From assembly GCA_001749745.1 (NCBI GenBank), contig JWTM01000541.1, positions 186,466 through 250,465 on the forward strand: a stretch of DNA of 64,000 nt, written 5' to 3'. The notes beneath the pieces were generated by a model. The model saw only the letters and a program-made list of their open reading frames with translations, did no database searches and was not told the origin of the DNA. Positions within the stretch are counted from its first letter, which is position 1; the number at the start of each line of letters is the position of its first letter. The position numbers and the translations under genes are program-made. Positions 38,943 to 44,290 of the stretch are shown one piece after another. This stretch comes from Candidatus Marispirochaeta associata (GTDB taxonomy: Bacteria; Spirochaetota; Spirochaetia; JC444; Marispirochaetaceae).

Positions 38943-38947
38943 GTCCT

Positions 38948-39097
38948 CGGTTTTCGGGGCAGGGTGCGCCGCATATCCCGCAGAGCGGGATGAAGGCAAT
39001 TCCCGACCGGCGGTTATAGTCCGCGAGTTTCTGCCAGACAGAAGCTGAACCGGTGAAATTCCGGTACCGACGGTATAGTCCGGATGGGAGAAAACCG
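38948..39097 (+). ncRNA. FMN riboswitch (RFN element) aptamer
   Basis: All conserved RFN blocks are present: 'GGGGCAGGGTG', 'AATTCCCGACCGGCGGT', 'TGAACCGGTGAAATTCCGG', 'TACCGACGGTATAGTC' and 'GGATGGGAGAA'. Helix P1 is a perfect 8-bp pair of CGGTTTTC (38948-38955) with GAAAACCG (39090-39097). FMN binding should favour the downstream terminator and shut off the rib operon. The expression platform contains a long hairpin (39096-39130) and an intrinsic terminator. Confidence 0.97.
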
Positions 39098-39130
39098 ACG
39101 GGCTAGGTCTCTGCCTAGCCTCTCCCGTCG
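39096..39130 (+). promoter_or_regulatory. FMN riboswitch expression-platform hairpin
   Basis: CGACG (39096-39100) pairs with CGTCG (39126-39130) and GGCTAGG (39101-39107) with CCTAGCC (39114-39120), leaving a small bulge on the 3' side. Its first 2 nt overlap the 3' strand of aptamer helix P1, so the two structures compete. Confidence 0.6.
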
Positions 39131-39141
39131 ACGTATGAAGC

Positions 39142-39166
39142 CCCCGGTATAGTCCGGGGTTTTTTT
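39142..39166 (+). terminator. Terminator of the FMN riboswitch
   Basis: CCCCGG-TATAGT-CCGGGG followed by seven T. The loop and flanks repeat 13 nt (CGGTATAGTCCGG) that also occur inside the aptamer at 39071-39083. Confidence 0.9.
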
Positions 39167-39218
39167 ATGTCCGACGGCTCTCCCCTTTTATGAGATCGCC
39201 CCGTGCCAGGAGGATCTC

Positions 39219-40352
39219 ATGCAAATTGCAATTCAAGTCTCCTATCTGGATCGCTGCCTGGAGCTGGCCGAGCTCGGACGCGGGCGAACCTCGCCCAACC
39301 CGATGGTCGGCGCGGTAGTGGTCCGCGACGGCGAGGTGGTCGCCGAGGGCTACCATTCCGCCTACGGGGAGCGTCACGCCGAATACGCCGCCCTCGCGGT
39401 CGCGGGATACCGGGCCCGGGGAAGTACCCTCTACTGTAACCTCGAACCCTGCTGCTTCCGATCGCCCGGGAAACATCAGCCCCCCTGCACCGATGCGATT
39501 ATCGCCGCCGGGGTGGAGAAGGTGGTGATCGGTCAGCGGGATCCCAACCCCAAGGTGGACGGAGGCGGCATTCGGCTGCTGCGGGCGGCTGGGATCGAGG
39601 TGGAACTCCTCGACGACGAGACCCATTGGCGCTTCAACAACCGCTTCAACACCCTTCAGGTGCTCAAACGTCCCTTCGTGCAGCTGAAGGCGGCCTTTAG
39701 TCTCGACGGCCGGATAGCGGCCGCCGGCGGCGACTCCCGCTGGATCAGCGATGAAGCGGCCCGGTATCGGGCGCACTGCTTTCGGGGCGAGGCGGATGCG
39801 GTCGCCGTGGGTATCGGAACCCTTCTCGCCGACGATCCCCTCCTTACCAATCGCTCCGGAATAGGCGGAAGCCCGAGGGCGGTAGTCTTCGACTCCCTCC
39901 TCAGGACACCCCTCGATTCCCAGCTCCTGCGCAAGCGGGCCGACGAATTGATTCTTCTCTGTTCCGAGGATGCCGATCCCGACCGACGACGGCGTCTGGA
40001 GGCCGAGGGAGCGACGCTGATCGGCCTGAAACTGCGCGACGGCAGGCTCGATCCTGGGGAATCCCTGCAGCGGCTCAAAGAGCAGGGCATCGTCTCGCTG
40101 ATGGTTGAGGGCGGTTCGGCCCTCTTGAGCTCCTTTCTCCAGAGCGGCGCCTGGGATCGGCTCGACGCTGTCCTGGCGCCGATCCTGCTGGGTCGGGGAG
40201 TCGATTTCCTGGGGGAGATCGGAGTCGGTTCCATGGATGAGGCCCTCGGTTTCGAGGAGGTGCGCTGGGAGCAACTTGGCCGACAGCAGCTCTTTCAAGG
40301 CTATCGGCGGGGGTGGCTCGAGGAGGTCCGCGGTGTTCACCGGATTGATTGA
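39219..40352 (+). CDS. ribD: Bifunctional diaminohydroxyphosphoribosylaminopyrimidine deaminase / 5-amino-6-(5-phosphoribosylamino)uracil reductase
   Basis: 377 aa. The N-terminal deaminase domain has zinc ligands in 'GERHAEYAAL' (H-A-E) and 'NLEPCCFRSPGKHQPPC'. The C-terminal reductase domain has 'FVQLKAAFSLDGRIAA', 'SRWISDEAARYRAH' and 'VEGGSALLSSFL'. It catalyses steps two and three of riboflavin synthesis. AGGAGG site before the ATG. First gene after the FMN riboswitch; its end overlaps ribE by 20 nt. Confidence 0.96.
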   Translation: MQIAIQVSYLDRCLELAELGRGRTSPNPMVGAVVVRDGEVVAEGYHSAYGERHAEYAALAVAGYRARGSTLYCNLEPCCFRSPGKHQPPCTDAIIAAGVEKVVIGQRDPNPKVDGGGIRLLRAAGIEVELLDDETHWRFNNRFNTLQVLKRPFVQLKAAFSLDGRIAAAGGDSRWISDEAARYRAHCFRGEADAVAVGIGTLLADDPLLTNRSGIGGSPRAVVFDSLLRTPLDSQLLRKRADELILLCSEDADPDRRRRLEAEGATLIGLKLRDGRLDPGESLQRLKEQGIVSLMVEGGSALLSSFLQSGAWDRLDAVLAPILLGRGVDFLGEIGVGSMDEALGFEEVRWEQLGRQQLFQGYRRGWLEEVRGVHRID

Positions 40353-40974
40353 GGAGATCGGAACTATCAAGAGCGTCCGGGGGGGCGGCGCCTATCGGCG
40401 CATCGAGATCGAGGCTCCTGGCCTAGCGCAGGCGACGACCGTCGGCGCCTCCGTGGCTGTGGACGGCGTCTGCCAGACGGTAACCGGCTTCGGATCGGGC
40501 AGCTTCCTGATCGATAGCCTGGCGGAAACCCTCGCCAAGACCACCTTCGGGGATTACCGTCCCGGCCGGCGGGTAAACCTGGAACAGGCTATGCGTCTCG
40601 GGGACCGCCTGGACGGGCATCTGGTTCAGGGGCACGTCAACGCTAGCGCCCGGATCAGTAGTATCGAACGGCGGGCGGAGAACATATTTCTCAGCCTTGA
40701 ACTGTCCCCTGCGGTCCTGCGCTACTGCGTGGCGGAGGGGTCGATCGCCGTGGACGGAATCAGTCTTACCGTCGCCGCCGTCGAAAACGGAGGGGTACGA
40801 CTTAACATTATCCCCGAAACCTGGAAGGCGACGGTCCTGGCCGACCGGCGCGTCGGCGAGCGGGTCAATATCGAGTCCGATATCATCGGCCGCTATCTGG
40901 AGCGCCTGGTGGTCGGCGCGCCGTTGCGAAGCGCGTTGGATAGGAGCGTTCTGGAACGCTATGGATTTGCATAA
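40333..40974 (+). CDS. ribE: Riboflavin synthase
   Basis: 213 aa from the GTG at 40333 (GAGGAGG upstream), which gives the conserved 'FTGLIEEIGTI' N-terminus; in-frame codons further upstream are inside ribD. Two lumazine-binding repeats are visible: 'VAVDGVCQTV' with 'GDRLDGHLVQGHVN', and 'IAVDGISLTV' with 'GERVNIESDIIGRYLERL'. The enzyme joins two dimethylribityllumazine molecules to riboflavin. The 20-nt overlap with ribD indicates coupling. Confidence 0.96.
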   Translation: MFTGLIEEIGTIKSVRGGGAYRRIEIEAPGLAQATTVGASVAVDGVCQTVTGFGSGSFLIDSLAETLAKTTFGDYRPGRRVNLEQAMRLGDRLDGHLVQGHVNASARISSIERRAENIFLSLELSPAVLRYCVAEGSIAVDGISLTVAAVENGGVRLNIIPETWKATVLADRRVGERVNIESDIIGRYLERLVVGAPLRSALDRSVLERYGFA

Positions 40975-40993
40975 ACAAACAGAGGAGCAGGCA

Positions 40994-42247
40994 ATGAACA
41001 CGAAAGCTATACAAGCCAAGATCGACCGGGTCGCCGGGGCGATCGAAGAGATCCGGGCGGGACGAATGATTCTGGTCCGGGACGACGAAGGCCGGGAGAA
41101 CGAGGCCGATCTGATCTGCGCCGCCGAGCTGGCGGACCAGGAGAACGTGGGCTTCATGGCCGTCCGGGGGCGGGGACTGATTTGTCAGGCTTTGGAGAAG
41201 GAGGCCGCCCGGCGGCTCGATCTCTATCCCCAGGCCCACGTCAACGCCGATGCGATGGGGACCGCCTTTACGGTCAGTGTCGACGCCGCCGAAGGGGTCA
41301 CTACCGGAATATCCGCCGCCGACCGGGCCCATACCGCCCGGCTGCTGGCCTCTCCCGACTCCCGGCCTGAGGACTTCCGACGCCCGGGACATCTCTTTCC
41401 GTTGGTCGCCAAGCCCGGCGGAGTCTATGCCCGCCGCGGACACACCGAGGCGGCGGTCGACATGGCTCGCCTGGCGGGACTCAGGCCCAGCGCCCTGATC
41501 TGCGAGGTGATGCTGGACGACGGCAGGATGGCCGCGGGTGAAGCCCTGGAGAACTTGGCCCGGGAGTGGAAGATGCCGTTGATCACCATCGAGGAGCTGA
41601 TTCTCTACCGCGAAGCCTCGGGAGATATCCGTATGGAGGAGACTCCGGCGGTAACCCTTCCGACCCGCTACGGGGAGTTTCGAAGCCGGGCCTTCCGGAG
41701 CGAAGATCCTCAAAGCCGGGAGTTGATCCTCCTGGAACATCCGGGACGCAAACCGGGAGCAGCCCCCTTGGTGAGGTTTCATTCGGAGTGCCTTACCGGC
41801 GAGGCTCTCCATAGCCTGCGCTGCGACTGCGGTCCCCAGCTGGAGGCGGCCCTGGAGGCGATCGCCCGTGAGGGGGGCGCCCTGGTCTATCTGAAGCAGG
41901 AGGGGCGCGGCATCGGACTCTTCGAGAAGATGAAGGCCTACGCCCTGCAGGATGAGGGCGAGGATACCGTGGAGGCAAACCTGAGTCTGGGACACGAGCC
42001 TGATCTGCGACGCTATGGGGCGGCCGCGGCGGTGCTGAAGCGGAATGAGTATACCCGGGTGAGGATGATGACCAATAATCCGCAGAAAATGCAGGCCCTA
42101 AAGCTGGCGGGAATCGAGATCAACGAACGGGTCGAACTTTATCGGGGGGAGAGCTCCCATAATCGGAATTATCTGAAAACGAAAATCAGCCGCATGGGAC
42201 ATATCGCCCCGGCTACACAAAACGAGAGGAGTGAGAAAAGCGCATGA
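40994..42247 (+). CDS. ribBA: Bifunctional 3,4-dihydroxy-2-butanone-4-phosphate synthase / GTP cyclohydrolase II
   Basis: 417 aa from the ATG at 40994 (GAGGAG upstream). The N-terminal RibB domain has '[13 protein letters not shown]' (acidic metal loop), '[14 protein letters not shown]', '[11 protein letters not shown]' and '[16 protein letters not shown]'. The C-terminal RibA domain has the zinc site '[14 protein letters not shown]' and '[14 protein letters not shown]'. It supplies both riboflavin precursors from ribulose-5-phosphate and GTP. The stop overlaps ribH (ATGA). Confidence 0.96.
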
Positions 42248-42729
42248 GCAGTATGAAGAGATATCGAGAAATTGAGGGCAGGCTGAACAGTGCCGAGGGA
42301 TCGCAGATAGCGGTTGTGGTGAGTCGGTTCAACTCCTTTATTACCGAGCGCCTGCTGGAGGGAGCTCTCGATTGCCTGGAGCGGCACGGTGTCGAGGGGG
42401 AAGGGATTACTCTGGTACGGGTCCCGGGAGCCTGGGAGATCCCGCTGGCGGCGAAGCGCCTGGTCGAATGCGGCAAATACGACGGCGTGATCTGCCTCGG
42501 CGCGGTGATCCGCGGTTCGACCGCGCACTTCGAATACGTCTCGGCGGAGGTGAGCAAAGGCATCGCTACCGTGGCAATGGAGAGCGGAACCCCGGTGATC
42601 TTCGGCGTCTTGACCACCGATACGATTGAGCAGGCGGTAGAGCGGGCGGGCACGAAAGCCGGCAACAAAGGCTGGGATGCGGCTCAAACCGCGCTGGAAA
42701 TGGTCGATCTCAAGCGTCAAATCAATTAA
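42244..42729 (+). CDS. ribH: 6,7-dimethyl-8-ribityllumazine synthase
   Basis: 161 aa. Conserved blocks: '[18 protein letters not shown]' (substrate ring stacking Phe), '[14 protein letters not shown]', '[17 protein letters not shown]' with the catalytic histidine, and '[15 protein letters not shown]'. The protein should assemble into lumazine synthase pentamers or capsids. Last gene of the FMN-controlled operon, overlapping ribBA by 4 nt. Confidence 0.96.
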
Positions 42730-42745
42730 GACTCCGCGTCCCCCC

Positions 42746-42775
42746 TTGACCTTCGGCTCGAAAATCCTGTATAAA
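42746..42775 (+). promoter_or_regulatory. Promoter of uraA and its leader peptide
   Basis: TTGACC (42746-42751), an 18-nt spacer and TATAAA (42770-42775). Predicted start of transcription is about 42782-42783, only a few nt before the leader ORF start codon at 42787. Confidence 0.7.
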
Positions 42776-42786
42776 TCCTCCCAATT

Positions 42787-42852
42787 ATGGGTGTGATGCG
42801 AATCTTCTACACGAGATTTCCGGATATTTTGGGCGAGGGTTCCCGGGGGTAG
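42787..42852 (+). CDS. Leader peptide of uraA attenuator (21 codons)
   Basis: An open frame of 21 codons begins MGVMRIFYTR and ends LGEGSRG. Its ATG lies 11 nt after the -10 box and its TAG stop (42850-42852) overlaps the first two bases of the terminator's 5' arm. There is no Shine-Dalgarno, so it would be translated leaderless. A UAUUUUGGG stretch (42835-42843) in the middle of the last third could be a UTP-sensitive pause site. No run of one amino acid is seen, so an amino-acid-starvation mechanism is unlikely. Layout matches coupled attenuation as in enterobacterial pyrBI. Not experimentally known. Confidence 0.6.
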   Translation: MGVMRIFYTRFPDILGEGSRG

Positions 42853-42893
42853 CTTTCCTATCGTTGTTGAAACGATGGGAAAGCTTTTTTTTT
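42851..42893 (+). terminator. Attenuator (intrinsic terminator) in the uraA leader
   Basis: AGCTTTCCTATCGTT (42851-42865) pairs with AACGATGGGAAAGCT (42871-42885), 15 bp including one T-G pair, loop GTTGA, followed by nine T in total (42885-42893). It lies 84 nt before the uraA start. A ribosome stopped at the leader stop codon would cover the 5' arm. Confidence 0.92.
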
Positions 42894-42976
42894 GTCCGCG
42901 TCCTGAAACCGGTAACGGTAAGGCACGGTTCACTCATAATTGGGCCTGGGATTAAGCACGTATTACAGGAGTTTCT

Positions 42977-44290
42977 ATGTCCGCACCGCTCTATGATGTC
43001 GATCAACGTCCGCCTCTCTCGCGCTGGATCCCCTTGAGCTTCCAGCATGTCTTCGCCATGTTTTCCGCTACCGTTTTGGTACCGCTGTTGACCGGTCTCA
43101 ATCCGGCGGTGGCCCTCTTTACCTCCGGGATCGGAACCCTGATCTATATCGTCATTACCGGCGGTAAGGTTCCCACCTATCTGGGATCCTCCTTTGCCTA
43201 TATCGCGCCGTTGATTGCGGTCAGCGCCTCCTATGGGGTCGAGTACGCCCTGGGCGCCTCCTTCTGCGTGGGAATCTTTTACCTGCTGGTTTCGCTGATC
43301 ATTCGCCAGGCCGGAACAGCCTGGCTCGACCGAATGCTGCCCCCGGTGGTGATCGGCAGCGTCATCATGGTGATCGGCCTGAAGTTGGCGCCGGTGGCGA
43401 TGAACATGGCCATGTATCCCTTCGCCGATCCCAGCCTGGGATACACCGGCGCCTATGTGCTGATCGCCGCTGTCACCCTAGGCATAGCGATCGTCTCCGC
43501 CATCGTCCTCAAGGGCTTTTTCACGGTCATTCCGATCTTAATAGGTATCTTCGGGGGCTACCTCTTCACGCTGATCATGGGCAGCTTCCTGCCCGCCTTC
43601 GCGCTGATCGACTTCACCGCGGTGCGTGAAGCCTCCTGGTTCGGCGTGGCCAAGTTCGCCGTACCCAAGTTTAGCCTGGTGCCGATCGTCACCTTCCTGC
43701 TGGTATCCCTGGCGACCATCGCCGAGCATCTGGGAGACACCATGGTGGTCAGCAAGGTCGTGGGCCGGGACTTCTACAAGGATCCGGGCATTCACCGCAC
43801 CCTGGCCGGCGACGGAGCCGCCACCGCCGTGGCCGCCCTCTTCGGCGGACCGCCGAACACCACCTACGGAGAAAACATCGGCGCCATGGCCATCAGTCGG
43901 GTCTACTCGGTCTGGGTTATCGGCGGCGCGGCGGTAATCGCCCTGCTCCTCTCCTTCATCCAGAAGGTGGGCGCGCTGATTCAGACCATCCCCACTCCGG
44001 TAATGGGCGGTATCAGTATGATGCTCTTCGGAATCATCGCCTCCGCCGGTATTCGCACCGTCGTCGAGAGCGGGGTCGACTATACCTGTAAGCGCAACCT
44101 TACCATCACCTCGGTCATCCTGGTAATCGGTATCGGCGGCGGGAAGATCTTCTTCCCCGTTACCGAGGGGCTCAACTTCGAGCTGGCCGACGTTGCTCTG
44201 GCGACCTTCGTCGGTATCGTGCTCAACCTGATTCTGCCCAAGTCGATGAACATGGCCGAAGAAGAGGCCGAAACGGTCGGCAGCAGGTAA
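42977..44290 (+). CDS. uraA: Uracil permease (nucleobase:cation symporter 2 family)
   Basis: 437 aa, about 14 membrane segments. Family marks: 'FQHVFAMFSATVLVPLLTG' at the N-terminus, 'GSSFAYIAPLI', 'PPVVIGSVIMVIGLKLAP', 'IAEHLGDTMVVSKV' with the proton/ligand glutamate, and 'GGPPNTTYGENIGAM' carrying the uracil-binding glutamate. 'TYGENIG' favours uracil over xanthine specificity. AGGAG before the ATG. Expression is probably controlled by the attenuator upstream; no pyr biosynthesis gene is adjacent. Confidence 0.94.
   Translation: MSAPLYDVDQRPPLSRWIPLSFQHVFAMFSATVLVPLLTGLNPAVALFTSGIGTLIYIVITGGKVPTYLGSSFAYIAPLIAVSASYGVEYALGASFCVGIFYLLVSLIIRQAGTAWLDRMLPPVVIGSVIMVIGLKLAPVAMNMAMYPFADPSLGYTGAYVLIAAVTLGIAIVSAIVLKGFFTVIPILIGIFGGYLFTLIMGSFLPAFALIDFTAVREASWFGVAKFAVPKFSLVPIVTFLLVSLATIAEHLGDTMVVSKVVGRDFYKDPGIHRTLAGDGAATAVAALFGGPPNTTYGENIGAMAISRVYSVWVIGGAAVIALLLSFIQKVGALIQTIPTPVMGGISMMLFGIIASAGIRTVVESGVDYTCKRNLTITSVILVIGIGGGKIFFPVTEGLNFELADVALATFVGIVLNLILPKSMNMAEEEAETVGSR

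Follow-up and report, generated by a model that had tools for sequence, protein, structure and literature searches.

The window analyzed here is a stretch of 64,000 nucleotides from contig JWTM01000541.1 of Candidatus Marispirochaeta associata, and all coordinates below are positions within it, on the forward (+) strand. At 42977–44290 lies uraA, the regulated gene in the reading developed below, which encodes a uracil permease (NCS2 nucleobase:cation symporter). This assignment rests on profile matches (PRK10720 at 459 bits, slightly below the cut-off of 477, and the ncs2 superfamily above its cut-off) and on orthologues in Spirochaetia with 66–90% identity. On its 3′ side, uraA is followed by uvrC, while the riboflavin genes ribD-ribE-ribAB-ribH lie 5′ of the uraA leader. 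The riboflavin genes are headed by an FMN riboswitch (RF00050, 104.9 bits) at 38946–39099, and together with it occupy 38946–42729.

The region between ribH and uraA comprises five elements on the + strand. (i) A sigma-70-type promoter, TTGACC-N18-TATAAA, spans 42746–42775, with the −35 hexamer at 42746–42751, an 18-nt spacer, and the −10 hexamer at 42770–42775. It fails the strict −10 rule of the terminator/promoter tool (T at position 6), yet it is kept in the two same-genus genomes, where TTGACG-N18-TATAA(A/C) occupies the same place. (ii) A leader ORF of 21 codons, encoding MGVMRIFYTRFPDILGEGSRG, occupies 42787–42852: an ATG at 42787–42789, 20 more codons, and a TAG stop at 42850–42852. 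With the start codon 11 nt past the −10 hexamer, a 5′ UTR of just a few nucleotides is predicted. (iii) The stretch GATATTTTGGGCGAGGGTTCCCGGG, with a U-tract, lies 5′ of the hairpin at 42823–42847 and is a candidate polymerase pause region, based on genus conservation and on the rise in T across 49 leaders discussed below; pausing itself is inferred. The T content is moderate in the window (ATATTTTGGG), and a TTTCCGG..TTTTGGG-like sequence in this stretch is kept across the genus. (iv) An intrinsic terminator at 42851–42893 consists of a hairpin, AGCTTTCCTATCGTT-GTTGA-AACGATGGGAAAGCT (42851–42885; a 15-bp stem and a 5-nt loop), and nine T at 42885–42893. The stem begins with the last two bases of TAG. 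An independent terminator search returned this single terminator at the leader (15 pairs, 42851–42885), and the stem is retained in both same-genus genomes (L002 and L003), where both partners of a pair have changed. (v) A spacer at 42894–42976 carries the Shine-Dalgarno sequence AGGAG ahead of uraA and, in the same-genus alignment, no conserved promoter. An initial annotation had described the promoter, the 21-codon ORF, the terminator with nine T, and the stop overlap, all of which held to the base. Its placement of the ORF a few nucleotides after the transcription start held as a prediction, and the stretch that it placed before the terminator is present, with the moderate T content given above.

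Within the genus, the start and stop positions of the leader ORF are identical, and the encoded peptides are not: MGVMRIFYTRFPDILGEGSRG in the window is replaced by MEACKDILHRFPVFWAEAAWG and MEARKKHLHKFPDFWAEGPRR in L002 and L003, respectively. In a MAFFT alignment of the genus, the leader ORF contains two single-base gaps that compensate each other, a suggestive result that depends on the alignment.

The hairpin could be rationalized as a plain terminator for whichever gene lies 5′ of it (ribH in the window), preceded by a chance ORF, with uraA transcribed from a separate promoter downstream. In favor of this reading, no terminator was found in the window between ribH and the promoter of the uraA leader, and the leader ORF is not improbable by itself: with promoter and terminator fixed, about half of the shuffles of the window leader yield an ORF reaching the hairpin (null ~0.5). 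Against it, the promoter sits 5′ of the terminator, and promoter, ORF, and terminator follow uraA when the upstream gene changes. The gene 5′ of the leader is ribH in the window and a different gene in L002 and L003, which we take, judging by eye, to be the end of deoC; since the leader stays with uraA while its 5′ neighbor changes, we assign it to uraA rather than ribH. In addition, the hairpin is separated from the uraA start codon by only 28–29 nt in L007, L008, and L117, which leaves no room for a second promoter. We therefore regard a plain ribH terminator as very unlikely. Given the absence of any other terminator between ribH and uraA, the putative attenuator may also end rib transcription in the window.

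We collected uraA orthologues from the class Spirochaetia and inspected their upstream regions. A promoter, a short ORF, and an intrinsic terminator precede 19 orthologues from six families, irrespective of the upstream gene, and the same three elements are found at the distant relative L023 (uraA 46% identical), bringing the total to 20. The comparison proposed in the initial annotation, namely, whether relatives keep a short ORF that stops at the terminator while its codons drift, was thus positive for 19 uraA leaders in six families, and also for pyrB and pyrE. The leader is absent from several uraA orthologues (L009, L011, L014, L119, L121, L123, and those of termite-gut Treponema). Terminators near uraA in L011, L032, L034, L040, L054, L056–L058, and L125 were excluded by inspection, being located behind tRNA or other genes, placed in a PyrR context, or weak. 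The uraA orthologues L033–L060, mostly from Treponema associated with animal hosts or termite guts, have no leader, reflecting an apparent loss or an ancestral lack; unlike uraA in this group, pyrB of other Treponema-like genomes retains one.

The analysis was extended to other pyrimidine genes, inspecting pyrB in 13 genomes and then class-wide, and pyrE in those 13. The layout seen at uraA recurs ahead of pyrB at 28 loci and ahead of pyrE at one (L160), in families f3, f4, f5, f8, f17, f24, and f25, which ties the device to pyrimidines. For instance, the leader peptide of L129, MNRIRRRYDTSGCTRVVQSLFSMINI, is followed by its stop codon and a hairpin starting from the very next base, and in five genomes with drifting codons (L189–L191, L199, and L200), the leader encoding MIYSLVTISCKFCISRLF has its stop 1 base 5′ of the hairpin. 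No such leader was found at upp (12 loci), pyrFE (7 loci), or carA (11 loci) of the same genomes. The terminators near carA sit behind tRNA genes wherever the preceding sequence was inspected; in several of L213, L214, L217, and L218, carA comes directly after tRNA genes with their terminator. The pyrB gene of the window's own family is embedded in a different operon and has no leader, which leaves uraA as the only known carrier of the device there. As a separate observation, the uracil phosphoribosyltransferase matches in L142–L153 are ~350 amino acids long and align to the upp model only over its second half, representing a divergent or fused form.

The combined set comprises 49 leaders (20 uraA, 28 pyrB, and one pyrE) with ORFs of 14–56 codons. 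The ORF stop falls between −10 and +31 relative to the first base of the hairpin in 41 of the 49, and in the other eight, the ORF continues through the hairpin, like that of E. coli pyrL. The start codon lies 7–11 nt past the −10 box in 16/49 leaders (uraA of f1, f4, and f26, plus some pyrB/pyrE), while the remaining leaders mostly have a Shine-Dalgarno-led start. Start sites are only predicted; on the basis of promoter position, about a third of the leaders, including that of the window, look leaderless. The leaderless character suggested by the initial annotation is thus conserved in three uraA families (f1, f4, and f26), with Shine-Dalgarno starts in others, making it a variant and not a requirement. 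Across the 49 leaders, the T fraction climbs from 0.20 at −60 to ~0.42 within the 25 nt before the hairpin, and runs of at least four T occur in 22 leaders versus 12.6 expected. This U-tract signal is modest, the leaders are related, and pausing remains an inference.

A single ORF carries little statistical weight; what exceeds chance is its conservation among relatives. In a blind shuffle test using one leader per lineage, a leader passed if an ATG no more than 60 nt from the −10 box opened an ORF that ended no more than 6 nt short of the hairpin or farther downstream. Among uraA leaders, 11 of 12 passed versus 5.1 expected (p = 4.7e-4), and among pyrB/pyrE leaders, 15 of 17 passed versus 6.0 expected (p = 3.3e-6); the pyrB locus L184, with a terminator and no leader ORF, was scored as a failure. 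Leaders were picked for a terminator in the right context and not for the presence of an ORF, although the picking was done by eye. In six groups of close relatives, ORF length is equal within each group and changes are spread evenly over the three codon positions. The lack of third-position excess in these groups does not support a conserved functional peptide: the reading frame is kept, and the peptide drifts.

Leader peptides followed by terminators are the classic layout of amino-acid attenuators, in which an antiterminator is switched by ribosomes that stall on specific codons. Beyond this likeness to the trp and his leaders, the spirochaete leaders depart from that class in three respects. 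No codon run is shared by the 49 leader peptides. The leader stop lies at the base of the hairpin, whereas in amino-acid attenuators it is >20 bp away from the terminator (PMC4824070). No antiterminator emerged from partition-function calculations, in which pairing of the 5′ arm with the upstream leader was computed without the 3′ arm: the pairing was 0.37 versus 0.45 in shuffles, with only one of the 49 leaders below 0.05. An amino-acid attenuator is thus all but excluded. With no antiterminator to switch, the ribosome itself must block the hairpin, a step that is inferred.

A second alternative is a riboswitch or a protein-bound RNA, PyrR-like or of unknown type, acting through an alternative fold, with the ORF being incidental. 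In its support, uraA is controlled by PyrR sites in Bacillota, and some non-hairpin sequence is conserved in the window's genus. Against it, Rfam searches of the window leader at the gathering threshold, and at E = 1 over 42700–43000, gave no match and no known riboswitch. Rfam found the PyrR site (RF00515) in the Bacillota uraA loci L032, L061, and L066, used as a control, and in none of the tested spirochaete leaders. The NCBIfam model of the PyrR protein gave only weak matches, with none of 13 genomes above the cut-off. Together with the lack of antiterminator pairing, across families there is no common sequence or length, whereas the ORF persists. This alternative is therefore also very improbable. 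The absence of a PyrR loop or purine riboswitch noted in the initial annotation held, and the outcomes that would have refuted its interpretation did not occur: no relative's leader was seen to retain RNA structure instead of the ORF, and neither an antiterminator nor a known RNA family was found.

We conclude that the window element likely controls uraA as a pyrBI-type attenuator of transcription coupled to translation. The promoter, the ORF, the stop–terminator overlap, their conservation, the target genes, and the absence of alternatives are shown by sequence, while read-through by ribosome occlusion, polymerase slowing, and a UTP or CTP signal are inferred. In the proposed mechanism, transcription would begin a few bases 5′ of the AUG, so that a ribosome could bind the RNA nearly at the moment of its exit from the polymerase; the near-leaderless start may shorten the wait before loading. 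When pyrimidine nucleotides are ample, the polymerase would stay ahead, the hairpin would fold, and transcription would end short of uraA. At low UTP (or CTP), the polymerase would slow down in the U/C-rich stretch before the hairpin, letting the first ribosome catch up; standing at the stop codon by the hairpin base, this ribosome would extend its footprint onto the 5′ arm, preventing hairpin formation so that uraA is transcribed. The act of translation would count, not the peptide, and the same device would govern pyrB or pyrE in many Spirochaetia. Geometry and conservation support the initial annotation's idea of a ribosome that covers the 5′ arm, with occlusion inferred, whereas slowing of the polymerase at low UTP, which it cited for enterobacterial pyrBI and pyrE, remains an inference here.

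Published work in E. coli provides a framework for the occlusion step. A stop codon 5 bp ahead of a terminator lowered termination from ~90% to <10%, an effect abolished without translation (PMC4824070). In the same study, terminators no more than 100 bp into a coding region were little repressed unless the polymerase paused (PMC4824070); the proposed mechanism thus requires a pause, which is not shown. Apart from this pause, for which the sequence is only suggestive, the leaders show every pyrBI-type feature that can be assessed by sequence, and a response to UTP via leader translation is inferred. The model rests on no expression, start-site, or translation data, and leaderless initiation is deduced from promoter position.

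The same attenuation could also respond to another signal, such as the translation or growth state, the purine/pyrimidine balance, or CTP, and not UTP. All that the anatomy establishes is a role for ribosome position, and in many leaders the stretch before the hairpin is rich in C besides T (e.g., GTGTTTTCCCC). Against this possibility, the device is found at uraA, pyrB, and pyrE, whereas upp, carA, and pyrFE of the examined genomes do without it, a distribution that indicates a pyrimidine signal. We consider a different signal unlikely.

Compared with known systems, the pyrBI-type attenuator proposed here is closest to the pyrBI operon (pyrL) of E. coli and Salmonella, with which it shares an ORF overlapping an intrinsic terminator, a U/C-rich stretch before the hairpin, no need for an antiterminator, and a downstream pyrimidine gene. 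Measured in the same way, pyrL of E. coli MG1655 has 88 nt from start to hairpin and a stop at +47. Unlike pyrBI, the spirochaete leaders occur in another phylum, at uraA as well as at pyrB/pyrE, with unrelated peptides. Their ORF mostly ends at or in the hairpin (41/49), whereas pyrL runs past it, and the predicted start is leaderless in about a third of cases, whereas pyrL has a Shine-Dalgarno start. The E. coli pyrE attenuator (rph-pyrE) is another case in which translation near a terminator controls a pyrimidine gene; there, full-length rph is translated, in contrast to the 14–56-codon ORF here. The PyrR-controlled pyr/uraA leaders of Bacillota likewise place a terminator before uraA that answers to pyrimidines, a response inferred in spirochaetes, which differ in having, among the leaders and genomes tested, neither a PyrR site (RF00515) nor a PyrR protein above the cut-off.

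The initial annotation knew of no described case with this combination of features, and we found no earlier description of a spirochaete or uraA case in the open-access literature searched, which leaves out most subscription journals. A broad survey of premature terminators makes no mention of spirochaetes or pyrimidines (PMC2965389). To our knowledge, pyrimidine sensing by ribosome position has not been proven outside gut bacteria such as E. coli. The evidence makes it likely that spirochaetes sense pyrimidine supply through ribosome position, with the UTP/CTP signal inferred. If so, control by polymerase speed and ribosome position spans a second, distant phylum and lineages without PyrR. 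RNA-family searches miss this leader because it has no conserved sequence or structure, and many similar attenuators may be hidden elsewhere. The dozens of natural variants, leaderless or Shine-Dalgarno-led, with stops before, in, or after the hairpin, may reveal how close the ribosome has to come before a terminator is silenced. A bolder reading, which we would neither favor nor dismiss, is a class-wide pyrimidine regulon of Spirochaetia (uraA, pyrB, and pyrE) run by ribosome-occlusion attenuators of separate origin from the enteric ones. In this scenario, the ORF would be leaderless in part of the regulon, where the first ribosome would load at the RNA 5′ end and the race between ribosome and polymerase would be the sensor, without a regulatory protein, ligand-binding RNA, or conserved peptide.

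Individual leaders display further variation. In the uraA leaders L012 and L118, the ORF (56 codons) extends past the terminator as far as the uraA start, which it overlaps in a different frame, possibly coupling the two translations. In L114 and L115, the leader starts with a GTG that overlaps, as GTGA, the stop of a 5-codon ORF, ATGGAGCCGACAGAGTGA, and may represent a termination–reinitiation start. Finally, CAATTT directly follows the −10 box in L007, L008, L010, and L118, a likeness to the E. coli pyrBI start (GACAATTTG), where initiation is repetitive and UTP-sensitive. The initial sequence of the window, CCCAATTATGG, is a weaker case for such initiation; in the CAATTT leaders, such initiation may add a second UTP-sensitive step.
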